Origin: Phycicoccus sp. Soil802
GTDB lineage: Bacteria > Actinomycetota > Actinomycetes > Actinomycetales > Dermatophilaceae
Assembly (NCBI RefSeq): GCF_001429605.1
Contig: NZ_LMSS01000005.1
Span: 292,618 to 356,617, forward strand
Length of the DNA: 64,000 bases
Direction of reading: 5' to 3'
Shown here piece after piece: positions 14,728-53,621 of this stretch. Every line of letters starts with the position of its first letter. Within the stretch, counting starts at the first letter, position 1. Under the pieces are notes generated by a model that was not told where the DNA came from, did not search any database, and saw only the letters and a list, made by a program, of their open reading frames with translations. The position numbers and the translations under genes are program-made.

Positions 14728-16140
14728 TCACCCGTCGCCGGGCACCGCCGCCGCGAGCGCCGCGATCGCCTGGGTGAAGCAGGCTGCGGGCGGAGTGACG
14801 AGCCCGGCGCCGACCTGACCGGTGCCGGCGACCCGTCCGGCCATGCCGGTGTTGATCTGGGGCAGGATCCCGGTCCGCGCCACCGCGGAGACGTCGATGC
14901 CGGTCGGCGTCCCGCGGAACTCGAGGATGGGCACTTGGTATGCCGTGTGCTCACCGACCGTGATCTCGTACATCGTGCGGGTGGCCCGGAGCGCGAGCGG
15001 CACGTCGCCGCCCACGAACTTCACGATGGCAGGGGCCGCGGCCATGGCGAAGCCACCGATGCCGGCCGTCTCGGTGATGGCCGAGTCGCCGATGTCGGGG
15101 TTGGCGTCGTCCGGTCCGTAGGAGCCGAGGAACAACCCTTCGGGGGTGTTGGCCGGTCCGGTGAACCACTGGTCACCGGTGCCTGCGGTGCGGATGCCGA
15201 AGTCCGTGCCGTTGCGGGCCATGGTGGTCACCACCGTCGACCCCGGGATGCCCTCGGCCGCCAGTGTCGAGAGCTTGCAGGCCGGCATCCCGAGGTTGAG
15301 GAAGAAGTGCTCGTTCGCCCCGGAGAAGCGCACCGCCTCGGCGATGTCGCTGGACGACCCGTCGGCGGTGATGAGGGTGGGCAGCAGCTCGCGCAGGAGC
15401 ATCAGCGACCCGGCCCGGTTGCGGTTGTGACCCTCGTCGCCCATCTGGAGCATCTGGCTGATGATCGACTTGACGTCGATCGGGCCCGCCGCGCGAATCG
15501 CCTGCTGCAGCAACGGTCCCAGCACCGAGTTCATCCAGTGCAGCCGGTCGATGACCTCGGGGCCGTAGGCGCCGTAGCGCAGCACCTTGCCGAGTCCTTC
15601 GTTGAGGGAGCACCACGACGTGTGGTCGTGCACCTCGTCGCGGAGCTCGTAGACCCACATCGACGGGGAGACGACGCCGGCCATCGGGCCGACTGCGTCG
15701 CGGTGGTGACAGGGCTCGAGCTCGACGTCGCCACCGGCCAGCGCAGCCTCGGCCGCCTCGGCCGTGTCGGCCATGCCCTCGAAGAGCATCGCGCCGATGA
15801 GGGCTCCCCGCAGCGGACCCGAGGCGCGTTCCCACTCGATCGGGGGGCCTGCGTGCAGGAACGTCCCGCGCTCCAGCCCGAGCGCCTCGCTGGCCGGGCG
15901 CACGTCGACGAAGTCCGCGCCGGCAGCGGTCATCCGCTGCCAGGCGAGCTCGTTCGCCTCGCGCCGGCGGGGATCTCCCGCGACGCGGGCGAGGTGGGGC
16001 GCACTGCCGTCGAGCGGCGGCTGCCAGTCGGTCTCGGTCACCTCGACGGCCTGGTCGCGCAGCGCGTCGGCGAACATCGAGGCGCCTGCCGTGGCGACCA
16101 CCGGGTCGGCCTGCAGGAGCCCGCGCAAGGGGGTGCTCAT
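14728..16140 (-). CDS. DUF1116 protein, AllG/YlbE-like oxamate transcarbamylase subunit
   Basis: 470 residues of the DUF1116 family (E. coli YlbE, now AllG). In E. coli this family works with FdrA (AllF) and YlbF (AllH) as the oxamate transcarbamylase that phosphorolyses oxalurate to oxamate and carbamoyl phosphate. Characteristic stretches are [28 protein letters not shown] and [19 protein letters not shown]. It overlaps the FdrA stop by ATGA and is the last gene of a tightly coupled three-gene operon. The substrate here may be different, since a barbiturase and carbamate kinase lie at 51-54 kb. Family call strong; substrate inferred. Confidence 0.82.
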
Positions 16141-17708
16141 CGGGTCGCTCCGTCCCGGTCGACGCCGAGGAGGGCGAGGGCATGCCTCGTCGCCTCGGCG
16201 TTGGAGAGGTGCACGGCTGCACCGGCTGCGGACAGCTGGGCGCCGCTCGTGTCGAGTCCCTGGGGGTCGCCGCGCGTGCCCGTGAGTGACACGACGACGG
16301 GCAGGTCACGTCCGGCGGCGGTCGCCACGGCCCGGGCGCCGCGGATCGCCTCGGCCAGCTCGGGAGCCGGGTCGGGGTGTGCGCCGTGGCCGAGGACCAG
16401 GTCGAGCAGGAGCACGCCGCAGCCCGGGTCGGCTCCTTCGGCCGCGATCCGCTCCAGCCGCAGGGTCGGGTCGATCATCGGGTGCGCCCGCCCGCGGGTC
16501 AGCTCGTCGTCACCGAAGTCGATGACCAGGTGGGCCTGGGCGCGCAGGTCGGCGTCGAGGGCCAGGTCGGGCGAGAGCGGGATGTTGGACCTGAGCCCGA
16601 CGCCCAGCTCCTGGGCGGCGACCAGCATCGCCTCGTCGGCCAACGTGCCGCCGCAGAACAGCCCCCGCAGGAAGCGAGGCTCCCGCCGCGAGCCGTCCGA
16701 CTCTGAAGCATCGTGGGGGTCCTGGTCCGGGGGATCCTTCAGAGTCGCGGAGATGGGTAGTGCGTCCCAGTGTGGCCACGGCGGGACCTCGCGACCGAGG
16801 GCGCCCAGGAACGACTCGACGGCGGCCGTGAGGTCGGGCCGCCCAGCCCCGAGCGTCGCCCAGTGGACCGGCTTGCCGAGCCCCGCGGCATACCCCTCCA
16901 GGTCGGCGAGCACCTCGGCAGCCGGCGGCTTCGAGACCACGAGGATCGACTCGGTCGCCTCGTCGGCCGCGAGCGCGGCGAGCGCCTGACGGGTCGACCG
17001 TCCGCCGACGGCTGACGACAGGTCGCGCCCCCCGACGCCGAGGCAGTGGCTGACCCCCAGCCCTGCGGCGTCGAGCAACGCCATCACCTGCTGGGCACCC
17101 GTGCCGGAGGCCGCGACGATCCCGACCGGGCCCCGCTCGACGACGTTGGCGAAGCCGAGCGCGACGCCGCCCACCACGGCCGTGCCGCAGTCGGGGCCCA
17201 TCACGAGGACGTCCTGCGCTGCAGCGGCGTCCTTGAGCCGGACCTCGTCCTCGACGGGGACGTTGTCGGAGAACACCATCACCGAGACCCCTTGGGCGAT
17301 GGCGTCGAAAGCCTCCACGGTGGCGTGCTGGCCGGGCACCGAGACCAGCGCGAGGGTGGCGTCGCCGGCGCGGACCGCCCGGCCGAGAGTCCGTGGTGGT
17401 GGGGCCGCACCGAAGCCACCCGCGCCCGACCCGGCCGACCGCAGACCGGCCAGGGCGGCGTCGAGGGCGGCCAGCCCGGCGGCGACCCCGTCGGCGTCGT
17501 CGGCCCGGATGGCGACCACGAGCTCGTTGGGCTGGACGCCCTGCGGCACGGTGAACCCCATGGCGCCGATCACCTCGAGGTTGAGCTCGGTGGCCATCGC
17601 GACCTGGGCCGCTGACACACCGTTCCCGCCGGCCACCTGGCGGGAGACCTGCATGAGGCTCACGGAGTCGTAGTATGCGCCGCTGCGCAGCTCGAGGTGG
17701 TCGGTCAC
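16137..17708 (-). CDS. fdrA: FdrA-like (AllF) acyl-CoA-synthetase-fold carbamoyltransferase subunit
   Basis: 523 residues with the succinyl-CoA synthetase-like fold of FdrA. The N-terminal nucleotide-binding-like half has VFSDNVPVEDEVRLK and MGPDCGTAVVGGVALGF followed by VGIVAASGTGAQQVM; the C-terminal half has RGLFCGGTLADEAM and VLLLDLVLGHGAHPDP. It starts with GTG overlapping the DUF2877 stop (GTGA). Between the halves, about residues 320-345, lies an extra segment (KDPPDQDPHDASES) coded by a palindromic DNA element with an 11-bp stem (16698-16747). A very similar element sits in hyuA. The insert is in frame in a linker, so the protein is probably functional. Confidence 0.85.
   Translation of the reverse strand: MTDHLELRSGAYYDSVSLMQVSRQVAGGNGVSAAQVAMATELNLEVIGAMGFTVPQGVQPNELVVAIRADDADGVAAGLAALDAALAGLRSAGSGAGGFGAAPPPRTLGRAVRAGDATLALVSVPGQHATVEAFDAIAQGVSVMVFSDNVPVEDEVRLKDAAAAQDVLVMGPDCGTAVVGGVALGFANVVERGPVGIVAASGTGAQQVMALLDAAGLGVSHCLGVGGRDLSSAVGGRSTRQALAALAADEATESILVVSKPPAAEVLADLEGYAAGLGKPVHWATLGAGRPDLTAAVESFLGALGREVPPWPHWDALPISATLKDPPDQDPHDASESDGSRREPRFLRGLFCGGTLADEAMLVAAQELGVGLRSNIPLSPDLALDADLRAQAHLVIDFGDDELTRGRAHPMIDPTLRLERIAAEGADPGCGVLLLDLVLGHGAHPDPAPELAEAIRGARAVATAAGRDLPVVVSLTGTRGDPQGLDTSGAQLSAAGAAVHLSNAEATRHALALLGVDRDGATR
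16698..16747. repeat. In-frame palindromic element inside fdrA
   Basis: CGACTCTGAAG (16698-16708) pairs with CTTCAGAGTCG (16737-16747). Allowing one mismatch, the stem continues by three pairs and leaves a 20-nt loop. Read on the coding strand, the core GAAGGATC-20 nt-GATGCTTC lines up with GAAGATC-20 nt-GATCTTCC in hyuA at 35280-35316, in the same reading frame (DPPxQxxxxD). Confidence 0.75.
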
Positions 17709-18619
17709 GGCAGGCTCCTCGGGGTGGCGGACAGGGAGGTCGCGGTCAGTGGGTTCACCGTGGTCGAGGCAGACGGTGTGGTCTGGCCGCTCTGTGCGGT
17801 CAGGGCCTCGAGGCAGCCGGCCAGGCCGCCCAGGAGGTCGGCTCCCGAGGTGTGGCCGATCGCGAGCACCTCGTGGACCGCCTCGGTGACTGTGGCCCCC
17901 TCACCGACACCGGAGGAGCTGTCGGAGCCGGCCGACGCGAGGCGCTGGAGCAGCCGCGTGACCGGCTCGGCGGCATACCCGTCGGCGGCCTCGCGCAGCA
18001 GCGACGCCGACAGGCTCGTCGTCACGGTGAGGCGGGGTTGGACGGCCCGCCAGAGCTCGTCGACGGACGCGCTCGTGCCGCGCGGGTGCAGACGGAGCCC
18101 GAGCAGAGCGCCGCACAGCACGTCGTCGCCGCTGGGGGTGAGTCCCGGCCCCGCCCCGACGAGCGCGCCCACGCGGTCCGCGAGCGCGGAGGGCGCCGGC
18201 GCGCCGCTGAGGAGCAGCTCGGCGACGCCACGGGCAGGGACCCGCCACGGCAGCGGCAGGGTCGCGAGGTGCCCGCCGACGGTGGTCGCGGCCGCGCGGG
18301 GGGCCGGGTGGGGGCGCCAGGTGCGCACGGCCCGGACCGTGACGCCGGGTAGCCGCACGGCACCCCCGCCGACCACGACCTCGTCGCCCGGCTGGGCCCC
18401 CCAGCCCACGGTCGGGAGGGTGGTCGCGACGGCGAGCGCCGTGGGGAGCCGCAGTCCGTCGCGGGTCACGACGGGCAGGACGTCGGCGTGCCCACCCACC
18501 TGGAGGTAGAGGGCGGTCGGGAAGGCCGCCAGGACCGTGCCGCGGCGCGGTGCTCCGTGGACGAGCTCGGCCGATCGCTCGGAGACCGCGGCTGGCCAGG
18601 TCGTCGCTGACGGTGTCAT
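17705..18619 (-). CDS. DUF2877 protein, AllH/YlbF-like oxamate transcarbamylase subunit
   Basis: 304 residues of the DUF2877 family (E. coli YlbF, AllH). The signature GAGPGLTPSGDDVLCGAL is near residue 155, and IGHTSGADLLGGLAG is near 262. It is the first gene of the operon DUF2877-fdrA-DUF1116. ATG 18619 has a very strong GGGAGGAGG ribosome site. It is divergent from a PucR regulator 83 bp away, the arrangement expected for a purine/pyrimidine catabolic operon under PucR control. The C-terminal 30 residues are Ser/Thr-rich and look dispensable. Confidence 0.8.
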   Translation of the reverse strand: MTPSATTWPAAVSERSAELVHGAPRRGTVLAAFPTALYLQVGGHADVLPVVTRDGLRLPTALAVATTLPTVGWGAQPGDEVVVGGGAVRLPGVTVRAVRTWRPHPAPRAAATTVGGHLATLPLPWRVPARGVAELLLSGAPAPSALADRVGALVGAGPGLTPSGDDVLCGALLGLRLHPRGTSASVDELWRAVQPRLTVTTSLSASLLREAADGYAAEPVTRLLQRLASAGSDSSSGVGEGATVTEAVHEVLAIGHTSGADLLGGLAGCLEALTAQSGQTTPSASTTVNPLTATSLSATPRSLP

Positions 18620-18702: not shown

Positions 18703-20406
18703 ATGGTGAATGTTGCCAAGGATGGCGGCCTGGTTGACGCGGAGTTGCCATCGGTCGGCGCCCCCGCCCCCAGTCGCGACCTCGTGGGGGGCGTGCGCCT
18801 CGAAGGGCTCCTGACGTTGCCCTCGCTGGCGGGCACCGAGCTCGTCCACGGGCCCGACCAGCTGCTCCGCGGCGTCCTGCGGGCCTCTCTGCTGGGCGCC
18901 ACCCCCACCCCTCGGCACCACCTCGTCTGCACCGACGCCGAGACCGTCGAGGCCTGGGAGGCAGCCGGCCAGGACCCCCTCGAGCAGAGTGCCCTCGACG
19001 GTGCCGCGGCCCTGGCCATCGCGGGCGGCTCCGCGGAGCAGGTCCGCCGGTGGCGGGAGCGCGCGACCGCGGTCGGGCTCCCGCTCGTGCTGGCTCCGCA
19101 CGGAGTCCGGGCCGAACGCATCGTCACCGAGGTGCTCGGAGCGGTCCTCGACCAGCAGTCGGGGATCCTCGAGCGCGTCGAGGAGGCCCACCAGATCCTG
19201 GTCGGTGTCGTGCTCGCCGGCGGTGGCCTCGAGGACCTGTGCCAGCGCTTGGCGGGCTTCCTCGGCGGCGCGGCCATGGTGACCAGCAGCGACGGACGGG
19301 TGATCGCGCAGGCCGGGAGCGACGCGGACCTCGGCGCGGCGCTGGCGCTCGACTGCTTCGACCGCACCGGCCGGCTGATCACCGAGCACGAGCCGGTGGG
19401 CATCCGGCCGAGTCAGGGCGCCCAGGCCCGGCGGGCCATGGTGCGGATCGTGGCCGGCAACCTCAACCACGGCCTGCTGGCGGCGTTCGTGGGCGACCGT
19501 GCGCTGACCGCCGACGACGTCCACCTGCTCGAGCGCGCCGCCACCGTCGCGGCCCTGGCCATCACCAAGGAGCAGGCCGTCTCGGCGGTGGAGAGCAAGT
19601 ACCGCGCGGAGTTCCTGCGCGACGCCCTCGCCGGCCGGGCCGGTGCTCCGGCCGAGGCGGTGGCGCACGCGGCCGCGCTCGGGTGGGACATCGACCGCCG
19701 CCTCGTGGTGGTGGTGGCCGAGACCGACGAGGACGACGCGCACTCCTCCCGCCCGCCCGAGGAGGTGGGGGTCCTGCAGGAACGCTTCGCCCGCGCGTGG
19801 AACCAGGCGATGGCGGTCCGCGACCCGCGCGCCCCCGTGATGGGCTTCAGCCAGGAGGTGGTCGCCCTCTGCGGCGTCCCCGAAGGGGCCGACACGGAGT
19901 CGATCATGCGCACCGTCACCGAGATCGTGCGGGTCATCAGCGGCATCGGCGGCGGCGGCCGGCGGACCTTCTCGACCGGCGTCTCGCGCCCCGTCGAGTC
20001 CGTCGCCGACCTGCCCCAGGCCTACGAGGAGGCCCTCTCGGCGGTCAGCGTCGGACGCCAGCTGCACGGCGACTCCGCGGTCACGCACTTCGACGGCCTC
20101 GGGGTGTTCCGGCTGCTCGCGCTGATCCCCGACAGCGCCGACCTGCGCCGGTTCGTCGACGAGGCGCTCGGGCCGCTGTCCACTGACGACACCGCCGAGC
20201 ACGCCGACCTGCGCCGGACCCTGTCGATCCTCATCGACACCAACATGAACGTCGCCGAGACCGCGCGCCAGCTGTTCTTCCACTACAACACGCTGCGCTA
20301 CCGCATCGTGAAGCTGGAGAAGATGCTGGGCCCCTTCACGACCGACCCGCAGCTGCGGCTCAAGCTCGCCCTCGCGCTCAAGGTGCACCAGATGCGTGGC
20401 ATCTGA
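18703..20406 (+). CDS. PucR-family transcriptional regulator
   Basis: 567 residues. The N terminus (LEGLLTLPSLAGTELVHGPD) is the PucR sensory domain, a GAF-like middle follows (residues 165-290), and the C-terminal 60 residues carry the PucR helix-turn-helix NMNVAETARQLFFHYNTLRY. This family regulates purine and related nitrogen-heterocycle catabolism. It lies between the divergent transcarbamylase operon and the UraA-type permease, so it is the likely regulator of both. TACAGT 6 nt before the ATG suggests a leaderless message. The ligand is unknown; uracil, barbiturate or an ureido acid are plausible. Confidence 0.87.
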   Translation: MVNVAKDGGLVDAELPSVGAPAPSRDLVGGVRLEGLLTLPSLAGTELVHGPDQLLRGVLRASLLGATPTPRHHLVCTDAETVEAWEAAGQDPLEQSALDGAAALAIAGGSAEQVRRWRERATAVGLPLVLAPHGVRAERIVTEVLGAVLDQQSGILERVEEAHQILVGVVLAGGGLEDLCQRLAGFLGGAAMVTSSDGRVIAQAGSDADLGAALALDCFDRTGRLITEHEPVGIRPSQGAQARRAMVRIVAGNLNHGLLAAFVGDRALTADDVHLLERAATVAALAITKEQAVSAVESKYRAEFLRDALAGRAGAPAEAVAHAAALGWDIDRRLVVVVAETDEDDAHSSRPPEEVGVLQERFARAWNQAMAVRDPRAPVMGFSQEVVALCGVPEGADTESIMRTVTEIVRVISGIGGGGRRTFSTGVSRPVESVADLPQAYEEALSAVSVGRQLHGDSAVTHFDGLGVFRLLALIPDSADLRRFVDEALGPLSTDDTAEHADLRRTLSILIDTNMNVAETARQLFFHYNTLRYRIVKLEKMLGPFTTDPQLRLKLALALKVHQMRGI

Positions 20407-20661
20407 CCGAGCAACATCGGTATGCCGCGGGGGCACGATGGCGCCGCGCCCTCTGGCGGGAGGGACGCGGCACAGCCCATTGCACTCCTGCGCGACGCGG
20501 AATGCGAGCGCGCCACTCCGCATACTCTGCCGAAAGGCGCGCGGGACTCGATAGCAACAATTGCCCAATGCAGCGGGCGGTGGGGCCGCTAGTTTTCGCC
20601 TATCCCGGAAGGGACTGTGGGCCGCCGGCTGGGTGGCCACACCCGTGGAGAAGGAGTCCGC
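20407..20661 (+). promoter_or_regulatory. Upstream region of the permease gene
   Basis: 255 bp without a gene. It is locally AT-richer (ATAGCAACAATTGCCCAATGC near 20550). Two related 9-mers, CCCATTGCA (near 20477) and CCCAATGCA (near 20564), could be regulator half-sites, but this is only suggestive. The strong ribosome site AAGGAG is at 20651-20656. Confidence 0.35.
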
Positions 20662-22137
20662 ATGTCACTGGGCCTGGGTTGGAAACTGCACGGAGACGGC
20701 AACCTCTCCGGACCGGACGACGTCGTCGCCCCGGACGAGCGCCTCGGTTGGGGCAAGACCGTCGGGCTGGGCGCGCAGCACGTCGTCGCGATGTTCGGGG
20801 CGACCTTCGTCTTCCCGTTGATCATGGGGCTCAACCCCCAGCTGGCCATCATGATGAGCGGCATCGCGACCATCGCGTTCCTGTTGATCGTGCAGGGCAA
20901 GGTCCCGAGCTACCTGGGCACCTCCGCCTCGTTCGTCGGTGGGGTCGCCGCGATCCGCGCGCAGGGTGGCGAATCCAAGGAGGTCACCGGCGCGATCCTC
21001 GTCGCGGGCCTGGTGCTCGCCCTCGTCGGCCTGCTGATCCACTTCCTCGGATCGGGCGTCCTGCACAAGGTGCTGCCGCCGGTCGTCACGGGCGCCGTCG
21101 TCATGCTCATCGGGTTCAACCTCGCGCCGGTCGTCGCCAACATCTACTGGCCGCAGGACCAGTGGGTGGCGTTCTTCGTGATGGTCTTCACCATCGTCTG
21201 CGCCGTGGCCTTCCGGGGCTTCATCTCGCGCATCGCGATCTTCCTGGCGCTGATCTTCGGCACGGTCCTGTCGTGGGTCCTCGACAAGACCGTCGGTGAG
21301 ATCACCTCCGTGCTCGGTGGTGCCACCGAGGCGACCAGCCACTTCCGCACGAACTTCTCCGGCGTCAAGGACGCCGCCCTCTTCGGCTTCCCGTCGCAGA
21401 CGACCGTCGCCGCGGACGGCAAGGAGGTCGTGGGCTGGCACACGCCGAGCTTCTCGATGGCGGCGATCCTGCTCGTCCTGCCCGCCGTGATCGCTCTGAT
21501 CGCGGAGAACACCGGTCACGTCAAGGCGGTGGCCGAGATGACCGGCCACGACCTCGACCCGGTGATGGGTCGCGCCATCGCGGCCGACGGTGTCGGCACC
21601 GTGCTCGCCTCGGCGGTCGGCGGCTCCCCCACCACCACGTACGCCGAGAACATCGGCGTCATGGCGGCGACCCGGGTCTACTCGACCGCCGCCTACTACG
21701 TGGCAGCGGTGGTGGCGATCATCTTCGGCCTCTCGCCCAAGTTCGGGGCGCTCGTCGCCTCGGTCCCCGGTGGTGTGCTCGGCGGGATCACCGTGGTGCT
21801 CTACGGCATGATCGGCCTGCTCGGCGCCAAGATCTGGAAGGAGAACGGCGTCGACTTCGGCAACCCGATCAACCTCGTGCCGATCGCGGCCGGGATCATC
21901 ATGGGCGTCGGTGACGTGAAGCTGAAGTTCACCGACAACTTCTCCCTCACCGGGATCGCGCTCGGCACCATCGTCGCCGTCGGCGGCTACCACCTCGCCA
22001 AGGCCCTCGCCCCACGCGAGCTGCGCGACCGCGCCGCCGCCGGACCAGGTGGGACGGTGCTCACCGTCGGTGGCACGGACACCTACGGCGACAGCGACGG
22101 GGTCGACGACCTCTACCAGGGCGACGACCGCCGCTGA
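20662..22137 (+). CDS. NCS2 nucleobase permease, uracil (UraA) type
   Basis: 491 residues with about 14 hydrophobic segments. ATG 20662 with AAGGAG upstream is chosen over the in-frame codon at 20617. The central motif ALIAENTGHVKAVAEMTGHD and the loop GGSPTTTYAENIGVMA match UraA-type uracil permeases, where the two Glu contact the uracil ring. Purine transporters of the family usually have an FSQN-type sequence instead. It imports uracil or a similar pyrimidine by proton symport. It follows pucR and precedes the Mo-hydroxylase genes, supporting pyrimidine catabolism. A strong hairpin follows. Confidence 0.88.
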   Translation: MSLGLGWKLHGDGNLSGPDDVVAPDERLGWGKTVGLGAQHVVAMFGATFVFPLIMGLNPQLAIMMSGIATIAFLLIVQGKVPSYLGTSASFVGGVAAIRAQGGESKEVTGAILVAGLVLALVGLLIHFLGSGVLHKVLPPVVTGAVVMLIGFNLAPVVANIYWPQDQWVAFFVMVFTIVCAVAFRGFISRIAIFLALIFGTVLSWVLDKTVGEITSVLGGATEATSHFRTNFSGVKDAALFGFPSQTTVAADGKEVVGWHTPSFSMAAILLVLPAVIALIAENTGHVKAVAEMTGHDLDPVMGRAIAADGVGTVLASAVGGSPTTTYAENIGVMAATRVYSTAAYYVAAVVAIIFGLSPKFGALVASVPGGVLGGITVVLYGMIGLLGAKIWKENGVDFGNPINLVPIAAGIIMGVGDVKLKFTDNFSLTGIALGTIVAVGGYHLAKALAPRELRDRAAAGPGGTVLTVGGTDTYGDSDGVDDLYQGDDRR

Positions 22138-22241: not shown

Positions 22242-23144
22242 GTGAAGCCAGCCCCCTTCGTGCACCACGCACCCCGCTCCGTCGCCGAGGCGGTCGGGGT
22301 GCTGGCGCAGGTCGGCCCCGAGGGCAAGGTGCTCGCGGGCGGGCAGAGCCTGATCCCGATCCTCAACATGCGACTGGCCTCCCCGGCCCACCTCGTCGAC
22401 ATCAACCAGGTCGCCGGGCTCGCCGACGTGGTCGTCACCGGCACCGAGGTGCGCATCGGTGCGCTGGTCCGCCACGCGCAGCTCGAGCACCACGACGAGG
22501 CGTATGCCGCGTTGCCGCTGCTGCGCCAGGCGCTCGTCAACGTCGCCCACCCCGTCATCCGCAACCGCGGCACCACCGTCGGCTCGATCGCGCACGCCGA
22601 CGCCGCTGGTGAGATGCCGGCCGTGCTGGCCCTGACCGAAGGCGTCGTCGAGGCGGTGTCCGCGGGCGGCACGCGGGAGATCGCGGTCGCCGACTTCTTC
22701 GAGGGCGCCCTCGAGACCTCCCTCGGCGCCGACGAGCTGGTGGTGGGTGTGCGGTTCCGTCGCTTCGCGGAGGGCACGGGCACGGCGTTCATGGAGCGCG
22801 CGCGGCGACACGGTGACTACGCCATGGCCGGGGTCGCGGCGGCCGTGCGCGTCGAGGACGGGGTCGTCGCCGACGCCCGGCTCTCGTTCGTGTCCGTCAC
22901 GGACGTGCCGCGCACCCTCGACGTCACCTCCGCCTTCGCCGGCCAGGAGCCTGACGCCGTCGACTGGTCCGCGGCTGCCGACCTCGTCGCCGGCGCCATC
23001 GAGCCCGACGGCGACATCCACGCCACCGCGGCCTACCGCGCGATGCTCGCGGCCGAGCTGTCGAGGCTCACCCTGGCCGCTGCCGCTGCGCGATCCGTTG
23101 CCCTGCAACAGCATCTGTCCGACAGCGAAGGACCTGCCGCATGA
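22242..23144 (+). CDS. Molybdenum hydroxylase FAD subunit (CoxM/XdhB-like)
   Basis: 300 residues of the medium, FAD-binding subunit. The FAD motifs AGGQSLIPILNMRL (near residue 31) and TVGSIAHADAAGEMP (near 112) are present. It starts with GTG preceded at 6 nt by CAGGAT (leaderless type). It opens an operon M-S-L-coxG-amidase in which every gene overlaps the next by 1-4 bp. By family knowledge it passes electrons from the Fe-S subunit to NAD or another acceptor. Context suggests uracil or thymine oxidation, not CO oxidation. Confidence 0.88.
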   Translation: MKPAPFVHHAPRSVAEAVGVLAQVGPEGKVLAGGQSLIPILNMRLASPAHLVDINQVAGLADVVVTGTEVRIGALVRHAQLEHHDEAYAALPLLRQALVNVAHPVIRNRGTTVGSIAHADAAGEMPAVLALTEGVVEAVSAGGTREIAVADFFEGALETSLGADELVVGVRFRRFAEGTGTAFMERARRHGDYAMAGVAAAVRVEDGVVADARLSFVSVTDVPRTLDVTSAFAGQEPDAVDWSAAADLVAGAIEPDGDIHATAAYRAMLAAELSRLTLAAAAARSVALQQHLSDSEGPAA

Positions 23145-23662
23145 CCGAGCCCATCGCCGACTCCGCGACCGAAGAGCTGCTCGACCTCACGGTCGTGGTC
23201 AACGGTGTGCCGCGGCACGCCAAGGCGCCCGCGCGTCGGCTGCTGTCCGACTTCCTGCGCCACGACCTGCGCCTGACCGGCACCCACGTGGGCTGCGAGC
23301 ACGGGGTGTGCGGTGCGTGCACGGTGCTCGTCGACGGCCAGCCGATGCGGTCGTGCCTCATGTTCGCCGTGACCGCCCAGGCGCACGAGGTCACCACGGT
23401 CGAGGGCCTCGGGGCGATCGACTCGATGGGTCCGGTCCAGCAGGCGTTCATCGAGTGCCACGGCCTCCAGTGCGGGTTCTGCACGCCCGGCTTCCTCACC
23501 ACGATCACGGCCTACCTCGAGGACCACCCGCACCCCACCGCCGACGAGGCCCGCGAGGCCATCTCGGGCAACCTGTGCCGCTGCACCGGCTACCAGAACA
23601 TCGTGAAGTCGGTGCTGCGGGCCGCCGAGCTGCGCGCCGAACGCGCAGGTACGACGACATGA
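23141..23662 (+). CDS. Molybdenum hydroxylase 2Fe-2S subunit (CoxS-like)
   Basis: 173 residues. It has two 2Fe-2S clusters: a plant-type ferredoxin motif GCEHGVCGACTVLVDG (near residue 50) and the all-helical cluster with QCGFCTPG (near 109) and LCRCTGYQNIV (near 145). All eight cysteines are present. ATGA overlap with the FAD subunit before it, and its stop overlaps the large subunit start. Confidence 0.93.
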   Translation: MTEPIADSATEELLDLTVVVNGVPRHAKAPARRLLSDFLRHDLRLTGTHVGCEHGVCGACTVLVDGQPMRSCLMFAVTAQAHEVTTVEGLGAIDSMGPVQQAFIECHGLQCGFCTPGFLTTITAYLEDHPHPTADEAREAISGNLCRCTGYQNIVKSVLRAAELRAERAGTTT

Positions 23663-26136
23663 CCAGCCAGATGTTCGGCGCCCCGGTCAAGCGGCGCGAG
23701 GACCCGCGGCTGGTGACCGGCGGCGGGCGCTACCTCGACGACCTGGGCCACAGCGCCCTCGCCGCGGCGTTCGTGCGCAGCCCGCACGCCCACGCCCGCA
23801 TCGTCGACATCGAGGTCAGCGACGCGCTCGACGTCGACGGCCTGGTCGGCATCTGGACCCACGAGGACCTCCCCGGTCGCGTCGGCGAGCCGCTGCCGCT
23901 GCTCATCCCGCACCCGACGCTCACCCACGGACGCACCCAGTTCGCGCTCGCCCGCGACGAGGTCAACTACGTCGGCGAGGCCGTCGTCATGGTCGTCGCG
24001 CGCGACCGCTACGTCGCCGAGGACGTCTGCCAGCGGATCAGGGTCGACTACGAGCTGCTGACCCCGGTCGTCGGCATCGCGAACGCCAGGGACGGCTCGG
24101 CCCTGGTCCACGACGACGTGCCGGGCAACGTCGCGTGCCGGATGCTCCAGGAGGTCGGCGACGTGGACGCCGCGATCGCGGCCGCACCCCACACCCTCGA
24201 GCTCGACCTCGACATCGAGCGCAGTGCCTGCATGCCGATGGAGGGCAAGGGCGTGCTGGCCCGCTGGGACTCCGACAAGGGTGAGCTGCGCATCTTCTCC
24301 TCGACGCAGACCTCGACCGGGGTGCGCGCGGCCGTCGCGGCCAAGCTCGACCTGCCCCTGGCGAAGGTCGAGTGCATCGCCCCCGACGTGGGTGGTGGCT
24401 TCGGCGTCAAGATCAACCACCCCTGGCCGGAGGAGGTGCTGATCCCTTGGGCTGCAAGGCTTCTCGACCAAGAGGTGAAGTGGACCGAGGACCGGCGCGA
24501 GCACTTCATCTCGAGCGCCCACGAGCGCGGCCAGCTCCAGCAGATCCGGGTCGGGTTCGACGACGACGGGCGGGTGCTCGGGCTGGACGTGAAGTTCTGG
24601 CACGACAACGGCGCCTACACGCCCTACGGCATCATCGTCCCGATCATCACGTCGACCCAGCTGCTCGGCCCCTACAAGCCGGGCGCCTACCGGTGTGAGT
24701 TCTGGTCGCTCTACACCAACACCGTGCTCGTGACGCCCTACCGGGGCGCCGGACGGCCGCAGGGCTGCTTCGCCATGGAACGCACCATGGACGCCATCGC
24801 CGACCGGCTCGGCCTCGACCGCGCCGAGGTCCGGTCCCGCAACTTCATCCTCCCCAGCGAGATGCCCTACGACCACGGGCTGCTCTTCCAGGACGGCCGC
24901 CCGCTGAAGTACGACTCGGGCGACTTCCCGGCCAGCCTGGCCAAGCTCAAGGCCCTGGTCGGCTGGGACGACTTCGCGGCCTACCGCGAGCAGGCCGAGG
25001 CGGAGGGCCGCAGGGTCGGCCTCGGCATCGGTTGCTACGTCGAGGGCACCGGCGTCGGGCCCTATGAGGGCGGGCACATCCAGATCGAGACCAGCGGCCG
25101 GGTCAACGTCTCGACCGGCCTCACCTCGCAGGGGCAGGGCCACGAGACGTCGTTCGCGCAGATCGTGGCACAGGAGCTCGGGGTGTCGATCGAGGACGTC
25201 TTCGTCACGACCGGCGACACCCGCCGGATGCCGTACGCCGTGGGCACCTTCGCCTCGCGCGCGGCGGTCATGAGCGGCAACGCCATCGCCCTCGCTGCGC
25301 GCAACGTGCGGGCCAAGGCGCTGCGGATCGCGGCCGATGCGCTCGAGGTGTCGGCCGAGGACCTCGAGATCGTCGACGGTGACATCCGGGTGAAGGGCGC
25401 CCCTGGGACCCACATGACGCTCGGCACGGTCTCGGTGATGTCCAACCCGCTGCGCTACGCGTTCGACGAGGCGGCCAAGGCGGCCACGCAGTTCGCCGGC
25501 ACCGCCGACTACTCCAAGCCGCCGGTGGCCGACGACGACGAGCCCGGGCTGGAGGGCAAGGACTTCTACTCCCCCACCCAGGCGACCTTCGCCAACGGCA
25601 TGCACGCGGCGATCGTCGAGACCGACCCGGTCACCGCCGAGGTGAAGATCCTGCGCTACTGCGTGATCCACGACTGCGGCACGATGATCAACCCGATGAT
25701 CGTCGAGGGCCAGGTGCACGGCGGCGTGGCCCAGGGCGTCGGCGGCGCGCTCTACGAGCGGATGGTCTACGACGACTCCGGCCAGCTGCTCAACGCCAGC
25801 TTCATGGACTTCCTGATGCCCTACGCCTCGGAGGTCCCCCACATCGAGACCGACCACCTCGAGACGCCGTCGCCACTGAACCCGTTGGGCATCAAGGGCG
25901 CCGGCGAGGCCGGGTGCATCCCGGTCACCGCGGTCATCGCGTCGGCGATCTCCGACGCCGAGGGTTTCGCGATCACCTCCATGCCGATCTCGCCGGTCGA
26001 GCTGTGGGAGCTGCGCCAGCGGCACGCCCGCGGCGAGATCCCCTCGCTCCGCGGCACGCGGCATACCCCGTCCGCGCCTGTCACGTCCGCGCCCGTCACG
26101 TCCGCACCGTCCACGCCCTCCCGGGAGGCACCATGA
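23659..26136 (+). CDS. Molybdenum hydroxylase large subunit (form II CoxL-like), candidate uracil dehydrogenase
   Basis: 825 residues from ATG 23659, which overlaps the coxS stop. It is the Mo-cofactor subunit of a xanthine dehydrogenase-family enzyme. At the active-site loop it reads PYRGAGRP (near residue 360), the form-II pattern, and not the AYxCSFR of true CO dehydrogenases; so CO oxidation is unlikely. The catalytic Glu is in GIKGAGEAGCI near residue 748. The last 25 residues are a Pro/Ser/Thr tail with the repeat PVTSA. With a UraA permease before it and a barbiturase elsewhere in the window, oxidation of uracil to barbiturate is the best guess; xanthine, nicotinate or other N-heterocycles remain possible. 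Confidence 0.85.
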   Translation: MTSQMFGAPVKRREDPRLVTGGGRYLDDLGHSALAAAFVRSPHAHARIVDIEVSDALDVDGLVGIWTHEDLPGRVGEPLPLLIPHPTLTHGRTQFALARDEVNYVGEAVVMVVARDRYVAEDVCQRIRVDYELLTPVVGIANARDGSALVHDDVPGNVACRMLQEVGDVDAAIAAAPHTLELDLDIERSACMPMEGKGVLARWDSDKGELRIFSSTQTSTGVRAAVAAKLDLPLAKVECIAPDVGGGFGVKINHPWPEEVLIPWAARLLDQEVKWTEDRREHFISSAHERGQLQQIRVGFDDDGRVLGLDVKFWHDNGAYTPYGIIVPIITSTQLLGPYKPGAYRCEFWSLYTNTVLVTPYRGAGRPQGCFAMERTMDAIADRLGLDRAEVRSRNFILPSEMPYDHGLLFQDGRPLKYDSGDFPASLAKLKALVGWDDFAAYREQAEAEGRRVGLGIGCYVEGTGVGPYEGGHIQIETSGRVNVSTGLTSQGQGHETSFAQIVAQELGVSIEDVFVTTGDTRRMPYAVGTFASRAAVMSGNAIALAARNVRAKALRIAADALEVSAEDLEIVDGDIRVKGAPGTHMTLGTVSVMSNPLRYAFDEAAKAATQFAGTADYSKPPVADDDEPGLEGKDFYSPTQATFANGMHAAIVETDPVTAEVKILRYCVIHDCGTMINPMIVEGQVHGGVAQGVGGALYERMVYDDSGQLLNASFMDFLMPYASEVPHIETDHLETPSPLNPLGIKGAGEAGCIPVTAVIASAISDAEGFAITSMPISPVELWELRQRHARGEIPSLRGTRHTPSAPVTSAPVTSAPSTPSREAP

Positions 26137-26750
26137 AGATCTCCGGCACCGCCGCCCTCAAGGCGACACCGCAGCAGGTGTGGGACGCCTTCCACGACCC
26201 CGAGGTGCTGGCTCGGTGCCTCCCCGGCTGCGAGTCGCTCACCGAGGTGGGGCCGGACGAGTACGCCATGACGGTGACCGCCGGGGTCGCCGCGATCAAG
26301 GGCACCTACGACGGCAAGGTCGCCCTGCTCGACCCGCGGCACCCCGAACGGTTCACGATGAAGGCGCAGGGAGCGGGCGGACCCGGCACCGTCGACGCCG
26401 ACGTCGTCGTCCACCTGGCCCCGTCGGCGGCCGGCGGGACCGACCTGTCCTACGACGCCGACGCGGCGGTCGGCGGCATGATCGGCGGCGTCGGCCAGCG
26501 GATGCTCTCGGGGGTGACCAGGAAGATGGCCGGCCAGTTCTTCGAGGCCGTCGACGACGACATCGCCGGGGTGCGCAAGGAGAAGAAGACCAAGCCGGTC
26601 GAGGTGCCCTCCGGTCCGCGGCCCATCGAGGCGGTCGGCACGTCGACGGCCGGTCGCGGCGGACCGCGCGACTTCGGCTGGGGTGTCCTGACCGGTGGGG
26701 CCGTCGCGATCGCGGGGGTTATCGTGGGATGGCTGATCGGAGGACGATGA
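26133..26750 (+). CDS. CoxG-like SRPBCC protein with C-terminal membrane anchor
   Basis: 205 residues. Residues 1-150 are the CoxG/SRPBCC lipid- or cofactor-binding fold (KISGTAALKATPQQVWDAFH, then CLPGCESLTEVG and KGTYDGKVALLD). A flexible linker and one C-terminal hydrophobic helix (VLTGGAVAIAGVIVGWLIGG) follow. CoxG is needed to recruit CO dehydrogenase to the membrane and, in recent work on mycobacterial CODH, to carry quinone; the same electron-delivery role is likely here. ATGA overlap with the large subunit. The frame is open further upstream, but ATG 26133 has GGGAGG before it. Confidence 0.87.
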   Translation: MKISGTAALKATPQQVWDAFHDPEVLARCLPGCESLTEVGPDEYAMTVTAGVAAIKGTYDGKVALLDPRHPERFTMKAQGAGGPGTVDADVVVHLAPSAAGGTDLSYDADAAVGGMIGGVGQRMLSGVTRKMAGQFFEAVDDDIAGVRKEKKTKPVEVPSGPRPIEAVGTSTAGRGGPRDFGWGVLTGGAVAIAGVIVGWLIGGR

Positions 26751-45558: not shown

Positions 45559-46731
45559 GTGAGCGCACCGCTGGAAGACATCGTCGTCATCGACCTGTCG
45601 CGGGCCCTGGCCGGGCCACACGCGGCAATGATGTTGGGCGACATGGGCGCTCGCGTCATCAAGGTCGAGTCACCCGGCACCGGGGACGACACCCGCGGGT
45701 GGGGGCCGCCGTTCGTCGGACCCGACGACGAACCCATCTCCACCTACTTCCTCGCGGCCAACCGCAACAAGGAGTCGATCACCCTCGACCTCAAGTCCGA
45801 CGACGGCCGCGACGTCCTGACCAAGCTGGTGCAGCGCGGCGACGTGCTCGTGGAGAACTTCCGCCCGGGCGTCCTCGACCGGCTGGGCTTCTCGGCCGAA
45901 CGGCTGCACGAGCTCAACCCACGGCTGGTCCTGCTGAGCATCAGCGGCTTCGGCCACGACGGGCCACAGGGCGGACGGGCCGGCTACGACCAGATCGCGC
46001 AGGGCGAGTCCGGGCTGATGTCGGTGACCGGCCCCGACGCCGACACCCCGCAACGGGTCGGCGTGCCGATCGGTGACCTGCTGGCGGGCATGTACGGCGC
46101 GTACGGCGTGGTGACCGCTCTCCACGAGCGCAACACGACCGGCGTCGGCCGCGTGGTGCGCACCAGCCTGCTGACTGCCCTCGTCGGCGCCCACGCGTTC
46201 CAGGGCACCGCCTACACCGTGGCCGGGCACGTCGGCCGCGCCCAGGGCAACCACCACCCGTCGCTGTCTCCCTACGGCCTCTTCCACTGCCAGGACGGCG
46301 ACATCCAGGTGGCCTGCGGGAGCGAGTCGTTGTGGCGCAAGCTCGCCGAGGCGTTCGACATCGACCCCGCCAGTCCCGGCATGGCCACCAACCGCGAGCG
46401 CACCGTCAACCGCGACCTGGTGACGGCCGCCCTCAACGCCGCCTTCGCGGCATACCCCCTCGCCGAGCTGCTTCCCCGGCTGGCCGAGCTCGGGATCCCT
46501 GCGGGCGAGGTCCGCACCATCGACCGCGTCTACGACTGGGACCAGACGCGGTCGCAGGGCCTGGTCCTCGACGTCGATCACCCCGTCCTCGGCCACATCG
46601 AGCTGCCCGGCCCACCGATCCGCTTCGACGACAACCGGTATGCCGGTGGGCGCAGTGAGCACGACGCGCCGCCGACCCTCGACCAGCACGGCGCCAGCAT
46701 CCGCGCGTGGCTCGACGAGCCGGACGCCTGA
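45559..46731 (+). CDS. CaiB/BaiF family (class III) CoA-transferase
   Basis: 390 residues. It transfers CoA between carboxylic acids via an aspartyl-CoA thioester. The catalytic Asp is in AGYDQIAQGESG near residue 144. Other family stretches are DLSRALAGPHAAMMLGDMGA at the N terminus, NFRPGVLDRLG, and VGVPIGDLLAGMYGAYGVV. The start is GTG with CAGGAT 6 nt upstream. It is next to two gene remnants. Activation of a dicarboxylate such as malonate, a product proposed for the pyrimidine route, is possible but speculative. Confidence 0.88.
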   Translation: MSAPLEDIVVIDLSRALAGPHAAMMLGDMGARVIKVESPGTGDDTRGWGPPFVGPDDEPISTYFLAANRNKESITLDLKSDDGRDVLTKLVQRGDVLVENFRPGVLDRLGFSAERLHELNPRLVLLSISGFGHDGPQGGRAGYDQIAQGESGLMSVTGPDADTPQRVGVPIGDLLAGMYGAYGVVTALHERNTTGVGRVVRTSLLTALVGAHAFQGTAYTVAGHVGRAQGNHHPSLSPYGLFHCQDGDIQVACGSESLWRKLAEAFDIDPASPGMATNRERTVNRDLVTAALNAAFAAYPLAELLPRLAELGIPAGEVRTIDRVYDWDQTRSQGLVLDVDHPVLGHIELPGPPIRFDDNRYAGGRSEHDAPPTLDQHGASIRAWLDEPDA

Positions 46732-48803: not shown

Positions 48804-48812
48804 GAGGTCTCC

Positions 48813-49922: not shown

Positions 49923-50006
49923 GGTTCCACTATGAGCGATCAGGTAGGCTAATTTCCTGACCTGCCCGAGTGAGTTCTCTCCAATGCCTTGTTCGCTAGG
50001 AACAAT
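49923..50006. promoter_or_regulatory. Divergent promoter, desaturase operon / FasR-like regulator
   Basis: 84 bp and AT-richer than average. CAGGTAGG (49941-49948) and CCTGACCTG (49956-49964) form an inverted repeat with one extra base, just upstream of the -10-like CATAGT of the reductase gene (49929-49934 read on the - strand). It is a likely operator for the adjacent regulator. Confidence 0.5.
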
Positions 50007-51296
50007 ATGAGTCCCGATTCGCCCCTGAAAGCCCCTTCAGCCGCCGCAGCAGTCACCGACGCCACAACCGCCACCTCCGTCACCTCCGCCACCGAGCGGG
50101 CCGCCGGTCTCACCATGTCGCCCGAGGTGCTGGCCCGCCTCAAGGGCGCCCTACCGGCGGTGGCCAGCCACGCGGTCGAGGCGATCATCGAGGAGGTGCC
50201 CAGCTATGCGAGCGCTCGCGACTACCTCGTGGGCAACATCGAGGCCGCGGTGCAGGTCGCCCTCGGCTCGTTCCTGTCGATCGCCGCCCGCTCCGACGAC
50301 CCGAGCACGCCGCTCGGCCCGGCGCGGGAGGCGTCGTACAACCTGGGTCGGGGCGAGGCCCGCAGCGGTCGCAGCCTGGATGCCCTGCTGTCGGCCTACC
50401 GGATCGGCGCGCGCGTCTCGTGGCGGGGCCTGTCCGAGGAGAGCGTGCGCGCCGGCATGAGTGCCGAGCTGCTCGCTCGGTTCGCCGAGCTCGTCTTCGC
50501 CTACATCGACGAGCTCTCTGCAGCGAGCGTCGCCGGCCACGCGGACGAGCTCGCGACGGCCGAGCGGGTCCAGCAGCGCCAGCTCGAGCGGCTCGCCCTC
50601 GAGATGCTGCGCGGGGCCTCGGACGAGCTGGTCACGCGCCGGGCCGAGCGCGCCGGCTGGGACCTGCCCAGGTCGGTGACCGTGCTCCTGGCGCCCGACT
50701 CCGAGCTGCACCACATTCGGTCCCTGGTGGATGGGCGGTCGCTGGTCCTCACCGAGGACGTGCCCGGCGTCGACGCCCGCGACGACGTCGCTGCGCTCAT
50801 CGTCCCCCGGCTGACCCCGACAGCCCGGCGCCGCCTCGTCCAGGCCCTCGACGGCCACGACGTGGTCCTCGGCCCCACCCGCCCCTGGCACGAGGCCGCC
50901 ACCTCCCACCAGCGCGCCCTGCGGGGGCGGGCGACGCGCACGGGCCGGCGCACGGCATACGACACCGATGCGCACCTGGCCGAGATCGTGCTGAGCGCCG
51001 ACCCCATCGCGCTCGCCGACCTCCGCGCCCAGGCGCTGGCTCCGCTGGACGACTCCACCCCGGCCAGCCGCGAGCGCCTCGAGGAGACGCTGCGGCTCTG
51101 GCTGCTGCACCGCGGGCGCCGCGAGCCGGTCGCTGAGGCGTTGTTCGTCCACCCCCAGACCGTCCGCTACCGCGTCGGCCAGCTGCGCGAGCTCTTCGGC
51201 GACGCCCTCGACGACCCGATGCGGGTGGCCGACCTCGTCATCGCGCTCGGGGTCACCCAGGCACCGGTCGCGGAGGCGAGCGAGGCTCCGGCCTGA
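50007..51296 (+). CDS. PucR-type HTH regulator, FasR-like
   Basis: 429 residues from ATG 50007 (AGGA at 5 nt); an in-frame TTG at 49989 is less likely. The N-terminal 30 residues are Ala/Thr/Ser-rich. A helical domain follows (VASHAVEAIIEEVPSYASAR, then RSGRSLDALLSAYRIGARVSWRG), and the C terminus is a PucR-type HTH (EALFVHPQTVRYRVGQLREL). This architecture is that of FasR, a regulator of fatty acid synthesis in Streptomyces. Its divergent position beside a desaturase operon supports control of membrane lipid unsaturation. The nearby carbamate kinase and barbiturase genes are an alternative target. Confidence 0.82.
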   Translation: MSPDSPLKAPSAAAAVTDATTATSVTSATERAAGLTMSPEVLARLKGALPAVASHAVEAIIEEVPSYASARDYLVGNIEAAVQVALGSFLSIAARSDDPSTPLGPAREASYNLGRGEARSGRSLDALLSAYRIGARVSWRGLSEESVRAGMSAELLARFAELVFAYIDELSAASVAGHADELATAERVQQRQLERLALEMLRGASDELVTRRAERAGWDLPRSVTVLLAPDSELHHIRSLVDGRSLVLTEDVPGVDARDDVAALIVPRLTPTARRRLVQALDGHDVVLGPTRPWHEAATSHQRALRGRATRTGRRTAYDTDAHLAEIVLSADPIALADLRAQALAPLDDSTPASRERLEETLRLWLLHRGRREPVAEALFVHPQTVRYRVGQLRELFGDALDDPMRVADLVIALGVTQAPVAEASEAPA

Positions 51297-51435: not shown

Positions 51436-52473
51436 ATGCGGGTCCTGATCGCGCTGGGCGGCAACGCCATGACCGGTCCCGACGGCAGCGCCACCCCGCA
51501 GGCCCAGCGGGAGGCCATCGCGCAGGCGATGGAGCACGTCGCCACCGTCGTCGCGGCCGGGCACGAGGTCGTCCTCACCCACGGCAACGGCCCCCAGGTC
51601 GGCAACCTGCTCGTCAAGAACGAACTCGCGGCCCACGTCGTGCCGCCCGTGCCGCTCGACTGGTGCGGCGCGCAGACGCAGGGAACCATCGGGTTCACGA
51701 TCCTCGACACGCTCGAGCCCGCCCTCGCCGCGCTGGGGGTGGACCGGCGGGTCGCCGCCATCGTCACGCGCACGCTGGTGGCGGCTGACGACCCGGGCTT
51801 CGCCAAGCCCACCAAGCCGATCGGGCGGTTCCTCGCCCACGACTTCGCCCTCCCGCTGATCGCGCACGGCGAGACCTGGGAGGACCGCGGCCACCAGGGC
51901 TGGCGCCGCGTCGTCGCCTCCCCCGAGCCCCTCGAGGTGCTCGAGACGCACACCCTCCGCACCCTGCTCGGCGCGGGTTACGTCGTCGTCGCGGCGGGTG
52001 GCGGCGGCATACCCGTGGTCCGCGAGGCCGACGGCACGGTGCACGGCGTCGAGGCCGTGATCGACAAGGACCTCACCGCAGCCGTGCTCGCAAGCGCCAT
52101 CGGCGCGGACGTGCTCATCATCGCCACCGACGTCGAGAACGCCGTCCTCGACTACGGCACCCTCGGCGCGCAACCCGTCGGCCGGGTGCGCCTCGCCGAC
52201 ATGGAGGCGTATGCCGCGGACGGCCAGTTCGCGTCGGGCTCGATGGGCCCGAAGGTCGAGGCTGCCATGCGGTTCGTCCGCCACGGCGGCCGCCGCAGCG
52301 TGATCACGGCCCTCGACCGCATCGCCGACGCCTTGCACGGCGACGTCGGCACCGTGATCGGAAACGCTGCAGTCCCCACCGACCCTTCCACGCCAACCGA
52401 ATTCGACCCTGACCGCGACGTCGTCACGTCAACCGACGACTCGCCACCAGCCGTCAGCCCAACAGAGAGGTGA
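51436..52473 (+). CDS. arcC: Carbamate kinase
   Basis: 345 residues: about 310 of carbamate kinase plus a 35-residue acidic tail. It makes ATP from carbamoyl phosphate and ADP. Motifs: ALGGNAM at the N terminus, [11 protein letters not shown] near 51, [10 protein letters not shown] near 192, [12 protein letters not shown] near 213 and [14 protein letters not shown] near 273. ATG 51436 has GGAGG at 5 nt; TAGGCT (51402-51407) may be the -10. The 8-mer TGACAACG occurs twice just upstream (near 51339 and 51373). No arginine deiminase pathway genes are near, so the carbamoyl phosphate probably comes from the FdrA-type transcarbamylase. The barbiturase gene follows by 5 bp. Confidence 0.93.
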
Positions 52474-52478
52474 CCGCC

Positions 52479-53621
52479 ATGCCCGAGCCCATCGAGGTCC
52501 GCAAGGTCCCGATCCACAGCGTGTCCGACGCGAGCGAGCTGGCCAAGCTCATCGACGACGGCGTGATGGACGCCAGCCGGGTGATCGCCATCATCGGCAA
52601 GACCGAGGGCAACGGTGGCGTCAACGACTACACCCGGATCATCGCCGACCGCGCCTTCCGCGAGGTGCTGGTCGCCAAGGGGGCTCCGGCCGACCAGGTG
52701 AAGCAGGTGCCGATCGTGTGGTCCGGCGGCACCGACGGGATCATCAGCCCGCACGCCACGATCTTCGCCACCGTGCCCGCCGACCAGGCCGAGCAGTCCG
52801 ACGACCTCAGGCTGACGGTCGGGTTCGCGATGAGTGAGCCGATCCTGCCCGAGGAGATCGGCTACACCGGGATGATCAGCAAGGTGGCCGACGCCGTGAA
52901 GGTCGCCATGGAGCGCGCCGGCATCACCGACCCGGCCGACGTGCACTACGTGCAGACCAAGACCCCGCTCCTGACCATCCACACCATCCGTGACGCCGAG
53001 TCGCGCGGCAAGTCCGTCTGGACCCACCACACCCACGAGTCGATGGACCTCTCCAACGGCACGACCGGCCTCGGGATCGCCGTCGCCCTCGGCGAGATCG
53101 AGATGCCGACCGACGCCGACGTGATGAACAACCGGTCGCTGTTCTCGGCGGTCGCCTCCTGCTCGTCCGGTGTCGAGCTCGACCAGGCGCAGGTCGTGGT
53201 GGTCGGCAACACCAAGGGGATCGGCGGTCGCTACCGCATCGGCCACTCGGTCATGCGCGATGCCCTCGACGCCGACGGCGTGTGGTCGGCCATCAAGGAC
53301 GCCGGGCTCGACCTCCCCCAGCGGCCGCACTCCTCCGACCTGCAGGGCCGGCTGGTCAACGTCTTCCTCAAGTGCGAGGTCAGCCAGACCGGCGAGGTCC
53401 GCGGCCGCCGCAACGCGATGCTGGACGACTCCGACGTGCACTGGCACCGGCAGATCAAGTCGGCCGTCGGCGGCGTGACCGCCTCGGTGACCGGCGACCC
53501 GGCCGTGTTCGTCTCGGTGTCGGCGGCCCACCAGGGTCCCGACGGCGGAGGCCCGGTCGCGGCCATCGTCGACCTCGGGTCCGGCGAGCCGACCGGTTAC
53601 CGCGCCCCCACCCCCGACTGA
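52479..53621 (+). CDS. Ring-opening amidohydrolase, barbiturase / cyanuric acid hydrolase family
   Basis: 380 residues from ATG 52479 with AGAGAGG at 8 nt. The family is unusual: three similar domains, each giving a Ser-Lys pair. Signature stretches are [17 protein letters not shown] near residue 77, [10 protein letters not shown] near 227, and the C-terminal [21 protein letters not shown] near 348. It hydrolyses barbiturate to ureidomalonate or cyanuric acid to carboxybiuret. It is cotranscribed with carbamate kinase. With a UraA permease and Mo-hydroxylase in the same window, barbiturate is the better guess. Biuret and allophanate hydrolases, expected for cyanurate, are absent. Confidence 0.88.

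Follow-up and report, generated by a model that had tools for sequence, protein, structure and literature searches.

A conserved barbiturase gene cluster of Phycicoccus sp. Soil802 points to a probable phosphorolytic, energy-conserving catabolism of uracil

In Escherichia coli, the three-subunit oxamate carbamoyltransferase AllFGH converts oxalurate and phosphate to oxamate and carbamoyl phosphate (PMC11326118, excerpt). On the other hand, a hydrolytic route of uracil breakdown via ureidomalonase is cited for Rhodococcus erythropolis (PMC3758960 and PMC4051656, excerpts). Genes related to both systems are found together in Phycicoccus sp. Soil802 (genome size 4.29 Mb), in a stretch of 64,000 nucleotides of contig NZ_LMSS01000005.1 (positions 292,618–356,617), which was analysed as a whole and is referred to as the window. 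It carries three adjacent genes for AllF-, AllG- and AllH-like proteins, arranged as in AllFGH, together with genes for a barbiturase, an ArcC-like carbamate kinase and a molybdenum hydroxylase (Mo-hydroxylase).

We establish the identities of these genes, their linkage and co-occurrence, the specificity residues of the barbiturase, and a distinct clade of AllG. Based on this dataset, it appears quite probable that the cluster serves an energy-conserving catabolism of uracil (or barbiturate), in which the AllFGH-type proteins would split ureidomalonate by phosphorolysis. This phosphorolytic route is strongly supported by genomics, while all substrates and the direction of AllFGH are predictions. 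According to the model, an NCS2 permease would bring in the base, the Mo-hydroxylase would oxidise uracil at C6 to barbiturate, and barbiturase would open the ring to ureidomalonate. AllFGH would then transfer the terminal carbamoyl group of ureidomalonate to phosphate, yielding malonamate and carbamoyl phosphate, the latter of which carbamate kinase would convert to ATP, CO2 and NH3. An amidase would take the last NH3 off malonamate to leave malonate, which a CoA-transferase would probably activate. Oxalurate, the published AllFGH substrate (PMC11326118, excerpt), is one CH2 shorter than ureidomalonate. A preliminary description of the window had already proposed the phosphorolytic splitting of ureidomalonate, and the proposal gains support from co-occurrence and linkage of the genes, from the lack of AllD matches above cut-off in 76 genomes, and from operons that join a cyanuric acid hydrolase to AllF, AllG and ArcC.

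The ring-opening enzyme of the window is, by its sequence, a barbiturase. Its match to the solved barbiturase 5hwe reaches 665 bits, while none of the six further family members in the PDB exceeds 312 bits. Barbiturases carry the residues N/H/K/V/(S or A) and cyanuric acid hydrolases R/T/R/G/G at the sites that define specificity (Peat et al., PMC3758960, excerpt), the group VI (barbiturase) sites being AtzD positions 195/321/325/345/346. N/H/K/V/S is read at these five AtzD/Bar sites in the window enzyme (5/5) and in 80 of 80 relatives; the latter are the best 80 of 527 confirmed loci, a set which for this reason leans toward close relatives. The NCBI model for cyanuric acid hydrolase also matches the window enzyme (467 bits, cut-off 360), so an automatic label could mislead; the identification as cyanuric acid hydrolase is ruled out by the residue signature and by the ranking of 5hwe. 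The closest barbiturase among the matches listed, from which near relatives may be left out, is that of Pedococcus bigeumensis (94% identity). Among the genomes reached in a search for R. erythropolis, none exceeded 88% to the 5hwe sequence. A further AtzD-family gene, only distantly related (41% identity to barbiturase), is present in G108, of the same genus (G108:C1:503153-504250), and in G390 (G390:C1:430497-431646) the barbiturase matches fall in two separate pieces.

Co-occurrence of barbiturase and AllG was counted in a sample of the order (198 genomes) and in a sample of the class (345 genomes). In the former, the AtzD/Bar family is found in 15 genomes and AllG in 19, with both in 15; the two are on the same contig in 11 of these 15, 19–48 kb apart. 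In the class sample, where at least 72% identity to the 5hwe sequence was taken as barbiturase, the 75 genomes with 5hwe matches divide into 69 with barbiturase, one with a fragment of 27 residues (G219), four with distant matches (37–43%) and one at chance level (G057). AllG is present in 79 genomes and accompanies barbiturase in 67 of 69 (Fisher p ~4e-56, uncorrected for shared ancestry and hence no true probability); AllH does so in 65 of 69. The barbiturase genomes in which no AllG was found are two, G210 (72% complete) and G387. Conversely, 12 genomes have AllG and no full barbiturase, namely G219, G299 (80% complete) and ten with an AllG of 37–51% identity, five of which hold AllG beside AllF and ArcC, as in E. 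coli. No AllG was found in the four class-sample genomes whose sole full-length family member is cyanuric-acid-hydrolase-like (37–43% identity). AllG and barbiturase share a contig in 43 of the 67 genomes, less than 50 kb apart in 35 and less than 135 kb apart in 42.

Thirteen clusters were read gene by gene (the window, G108, G122, G150, G164, G004, G023, G001, G049, Embleya sp. NBC_00888, G006, G042 and G156). Relatives hold a single cluster, in which AllG, AllF and AllH are divergent from a series of PucR, NCS2 permease, the FAD, Fe-S and large subunits of the Mo-hydroxylase, CoxG, amidase, HyuA, HyuB, (CoA-transferase), ArcC and barbiturase, with mostly 18–48 kb between AllG and barbiturase. 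The preliminary description spoke of a split gene set, which holds for the window and not for its relatives; in the window copy, unrelated genes (beta-lactamase fold, FtsX, PfkB, cupin and others) only widen the spacing. All genes that it named are found by domain and profile matches where it placed them and belong to the set, but it overlooked HyuA/HyuB (33415-37478) and the CoA-transferase (45559-46731), which are part of the conserved arrangement. HyuA and HyuB occur in 13 of the 13 clusters, the CoA-transferase in nine (in G164 downstream of barbiturase), and barbiturase inside ten, whereas in G006 it is located on another contig. AllH of G004, G023 and G001 escaped tblastn and was recovered by a hidden Markov model. 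ArcC is present in all of the best 80 barbiturase loci and lies directly upstream in 79, the exception being L070 (about 9 kb away); as the flanks extend to at most 10 kb, absence of a gene from this set means little. The co-occurrence of barbiturase, trio and arcC that the preliminary description had put forward as a check is thereby confirmed, and chance proximity of barbiturase and trio is ruled out by the co-occurrence together with the compact clusters of relatives.

The FdrA-like (AllF) protein of the window remains under the NCBI FdrA cut-off (386 vs 433 bits). ArcC scores 338 bits with TIGR00746 (cut-off 358), 311 bits with PRK12352 (cut-off 266) and 258 bits with structure 1e19. Window AllG and E. 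coli AllG share 45% identity over 401 aligned residues, and the cluster-type AllGs form one clade apart from that of E. coli, with support of 100/100 in a tree of 28 chosen rows and of 100/99 in a larger tree (five duplicates and alignments of less than 300 residues were excluded), where the clade comprises 42 rows including one unrelated long branch. At nine positions, a residue that is fixed in at least 95% of 41 cluster-type AllGs never occurs in 11 others, in a comparison which excludes the most distant AllGs (37–43% identity). The changes include Met to Ala, Phe to Leu and His to Gly, several being from large to small. They fit a changed pocket, and a long branch alone could give them as well.

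Against solved structures, the large subunit of the Mo-hydroxylase ranks quinoline 2-oxidoreductase first (455 bits), followed by 6-hydroxypseudooxynicotine dehydrogenase (437), carbon monoxide dehydrogenase (CODH, 408) and xanthine dehydrogenase (161). This ranking rules out xanthine dehydrogenase. CODH, only third, is ruled out too; the alignment reads PYRGAGR in the window protein where CODH has AYACSFR, a loop which we take to be diagnostic of CODH. The NCS2 permease scores best with RutG, under the cut-off. Taken together, ranking and permease support oxidation of an N-heterocycle by the Mo-hydroxylase, with uracil as its putative substrate. The amidase varies. A nitrilase is present in 10 of the 80 loci, an unrelated signature amidase in 19, both in none and neither in 51 within the DNA stretch covered; in the 13 clusters read, the respective numbers are seven nitrilases, three signature amidases and three with neither by the queries used. 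The amidases are located upstream of HyuA in all loci but L048, and adjoin CoxG where CoxG lies within the flank. That one amidase can take the place of another, unrelated to it, suggests a need for amide-bond cleavage at this step, which a malonamate amidase would fit. Malonamidase E2 is not the closest relative of the signature amidase, being a distant match (95 bits, against 194 for the best).

Compact operons on three plasmids (L209, L210 and L211 on NZ_CP062120, NZ_OQ821180 and NZ_CP084773) join an enzyme of the cyanuric acid hydrolase type to AllF, AllG (and AllH) and carbamate kinase. On the plasmids of Aminobacter SR38 and Klebsiella SB610, fdrA, DUF1116, ring-opening amidohydrolase and carbamate kinase follow in a row. 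DUF2877 lies 7 kb further on in Aminobacter SR38; the portion of the Klebsiella SB610 plasmid shown has no annotation for it and carries the allophanate hydrolase gene atzF upstream. The order in the Serratia plasmid is amidohydrolase, NCS2 symporter, DUF2877, fdrA, DUF1116, arcC. Both types of plasmid ring-opener carry the signature R/T/R/G/G. The Serratia-type enzyme (at least 90% identity) occurs in 48 plasmid records, 46 of which list its AllG and two of which show broken matches; being near-identical copies, these records count as one origin. Several of them come from drains, showers or clinical samples. Cyanuric acid arises from chlorine disinfectants, which is a possible reason for such an occurrence.

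The plasmid AllGs fall outside the barbiturase clade on two separate branches, so the pairing of ring-opener with trio appears to have arisen at least twice. 1-Carboxybiuret, a true though unstable intermediate in one known pathway (PMC6219798, excerpt), has an NH where ureidomalonate has CH2; splitting it by phosphorolysis would yield allophanate, on which AtzF acts. AllFGH in the plasmid operons probably phosphorolyses 1-carboxybiuret to carbamoyl phosphate, from which ATP would be gained. Such a reaction would also explain comammox contigs without trtB that carry allFGHK beside trtA, biuH and atzF, a constellation read as oxalurate degradation in PMC12625717 (excerpt). We lean towards a more general hypothesis, by which AllFGH-type enzymes are N-acylurea (ureido-acid) phosphorylases that save one ATP each time, acting on oxalurate (allantoin), ureidomalonate (uracil via barbiturase) and 1-carboxybiuret (cyanuric acid, perhaps triuret), with R = COO-, CH2COO- and NHCOO-, respectively. 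Because of the cyanuric acid parallel, the route would be more general than first proposed. Partial AllG matches were noted on two plasmids that also carry classical atzD (NZ_CP119975 45993-46478 and NZ_KP289281 72500-72703). In Peptoclostridium (L212) and on an E. coli plasmid (L213), operons with AllH, AllG and ArcC contain a cysteine hydrolase and nucleobase permeases, with no ring-opening enzyme annotated; they may represent further possible substrates of the AllFGH family.

Given that AllFGH is characterised as an oxamate carbamoyltransferase (PMC11326118, excerpt), trio and ArcC might break down purine-derived oxalurate as in E. coli, with barbiturase belonging to a separate pathway that is merely nearby. 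An Ldh_2-type dehydrogenase, under the AllD cut-off, is found in 20 of 76 genomes including that of the window, in keeping with this idea. However, AllD, the known oxalurate-forming dehydrogenase, exceeds the cut-off in none of the same 76 genomes (the E. coli control passes), and an oxalurate pathway would have to accommodate the position of ArcC immediately upstream of barbiturase in 79 of 80 loci, AllG tracking barbiturase in 67 of 69 genomes, and a cluster AllG set apart from that of E. coli by clade (100/100) and nine near-fixed residues. We therefore consider it rather improbable. The least probable explanation is that the nitrilase or signature amidase acts as ureidomalonase, releasing malonate and urea for urease, and that trio and ArcC serve another purpose. 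This would leave the near-constant trio and ArcC unexplained, and no urease match was found in 40 of the 67 genomes with AllG and barbiturase. Yet the amidases found belong to hydrolytic families, the hydrolytic route is known in R. erythropolis (PMC3758960 and PMC4051656, excerpts), and urease matches in the other 27 genomes, that of the window included (the match in G341 is marginal), make a urea route possible there. The statement that barbiturase genomes lack urease is false as a rule (match in 28 of 69). We also think it unlikely that HyuAB opens the real ring substrate with ATP, barbiturase being accessory and AllFGH taking a related ureido acid. In its favour are the presence of HyuAB in every one of the 13 clusters, the position of N-methylhydantoinase (7hk5) and 5-oxoprolinase as nearest relatives of HyuA, and two clusters (G042 and G156) for which no barbiturase could be found. 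Set against this, ten of the 13 clusters include barbiturase, an eleventh genome has it on another contig, and the short cyanuric-acid-type plasmid operon of Serratia has no annotated HyuAB.

Several observations weigh against phosphorolysis of ureidomalonate as well. In addition to the urease matches in 27 genomes, the proposed route offers no step for HyuA and HyuB, although all clusters read contain them; a thymine branch or a second ring opening are guesses at their role. For both amidases, the solved structures include no close relative of characterised function. In G042 (one contig) and G156, the cluster (Mo-hydroxylase, AllFGH, ArcC, HyuAB; L168, L169, L188-L191) has been kept, and no barbiturase-family gene was found genome-wide. 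In the class sample, AllG and barbiturase on the same contig are separated by 65–133 kb in seven genomes and by 1.74 Mb in one. The complete genome G387 (L171) has a barbiturase, while no AllG or AllH was found in it and no ArcC in the barbiturase-flanking stretch read; near this barbiturase lie a P450-like gene and a Mo-hydroxylase that is only distantly related, and there are two urease matches.

The features of the window are compiled in the table. Adjoining frames overlap by 4 bases in the AllGFH trio, in the run from Mo-hydroxylase over CoxG to the amidase, between HyuA and HyuB, and between ArcC and barbiturase, which suggests that these neighbours are translationally coupled. A beta-lactamase-fold protein as in the window (27661-29235) is also found near the barbiturase of G387.

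Table. Genes of the conserved cluster and associated features in the window (positions of the window; scores in bits).
Feature	Position	Strand	Evidence
AllG-like (DUF1116), predicted ureido-acid carbamoyltransferase subunit	14728..16140	-	PF06545 E=7.5e-97, 324 bits; 100/100 clade with barbiturase-type clusters
AllF/FdrA-like subunit	16137..17708	-	PF00549; PRK06091 386 bits (cut-off 433); 237 bits to FdrA structure 3dmy
AllH-like (DUF2877) subunit	17705..18619	-	PF11392 E=5e-24
PucR-family regulator, divergent from AllGFH	18703..20406	+	HTH_30, GGDEF_2; same position in relatives
NCS2 nucleobase permease, RutG/UraA-like	20617..22137	+	RutG 345, UraA 253, PbuX 161 bits; all under cut-off
Mo-hydroxylase FAD subunit	22242..23144	+	PF00941, PF03450
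Mo-hydroxylase 2Fe-2S subunit	23141..23662	+	PF01799, PF00111
Mo-hydroxylase large subunit, predicted uracil 6-hydroxylase	23659..26136	+	MoCoBD_1/2; quinoline 2-oxidoreductase 455 bits
CoxG	26133..26750	+	PF06240
Nitrilase-superfamily amidase, predicted malonamate amidase	26747..27646	+	PF00795 (CN-hydrolase)
Beta-lactamase-fold protein, between amidase and HyuA	27661-29235		fold
HyuA, ATP-dependent hydantoinase/oxoprolinase A family	33415..35553	+	PF01968, PF05378; N-methylhydantoinase structure 7hk5 470 bits
HyuB	35550..37478	+	PF02538
Class III CoA-transferase, predicted malonate activation	45559..46731	+	PF02515; in 9/13 clusters
Second PucR-type regulator	49989..51296	+	HTH_30
ArcC-like carbamate kinase	51436..52473	+	TIGR00746 338 bits; PRK12352 above cut-off
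Barbiturase	52470..53621	+	665 bits to 5hwe; N/H/K/V/S signature

Among open-licence papers, we found none that proposes phosphorolysis of ureidomalonate or carboxybiuret, in line with the preliminary description, which was not aware of such a route (PMC3415516, the family paper of 2012, is outside this scope). Nor was any found that joins barbituric acid and carbamate kinase; cyanuric acid and carbamate kinase appear together only in PMC12625717. If true, the model would extend oxidative pyrimidine catabolism by a branch that saves energy, provide the newly identified AllFGH enzymes with a second and a third substrate, and give a reason why barbiturase genes travel with carbamate kinase. It would also predict a phosphorolytic use of cyanuric acid, a pollutant and chlorine stabiliser.

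In comparison with known systems, the cluster resembles AllFGH and the carbamate kinase AllK of E. coli (allantoin; PMC11326118, excerpt) in its three subunit families and carbamate kinase, and in the predicted chemistry (R-CO-NH-CO-NH2 + Pi -> R-CO-NH2 + carbamoyl phosphate). It differs in that the window cluster contains no recognised allantoin gene, the genome has no AllD above cut-off, and the predicted substrate is one CH2 longer. With the oxidative uracil pathway of R. erythropolis (uracil dehydrogenase, barbiturase, ureidomalonase) it shares the barbiturase group, with a Mo-hydroxylase and a pyrimidine-type permease at its side; the ureido group is predicted to leave as carbamoyl phosphate, with gain of ATP, rather than as urea. 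E. coli YgeW/YqeA and Clostridioides difficile UacY (uric acid; PMC12507026, excerpt) illustrate the same alternative, with a ureido group removed by phosphorolysis in one case and by hydrolysis in the other, although YgeW/YqeA involve another carbamoyltransferase and another substrate, similarity between AllFGH and YgeW being absent according to the excerpt of PMC11326118. Finally, atzDGEHF of Pseudomonas ADP (cyanuric acid; PMC6219798, excerpt) starts from a ring-opener of the same fold family and is hydrolytic (AtzEG, AtzH, AtzF), whereas the plasmid operons place AllF/AllG and ArcC beside the ring-opener.

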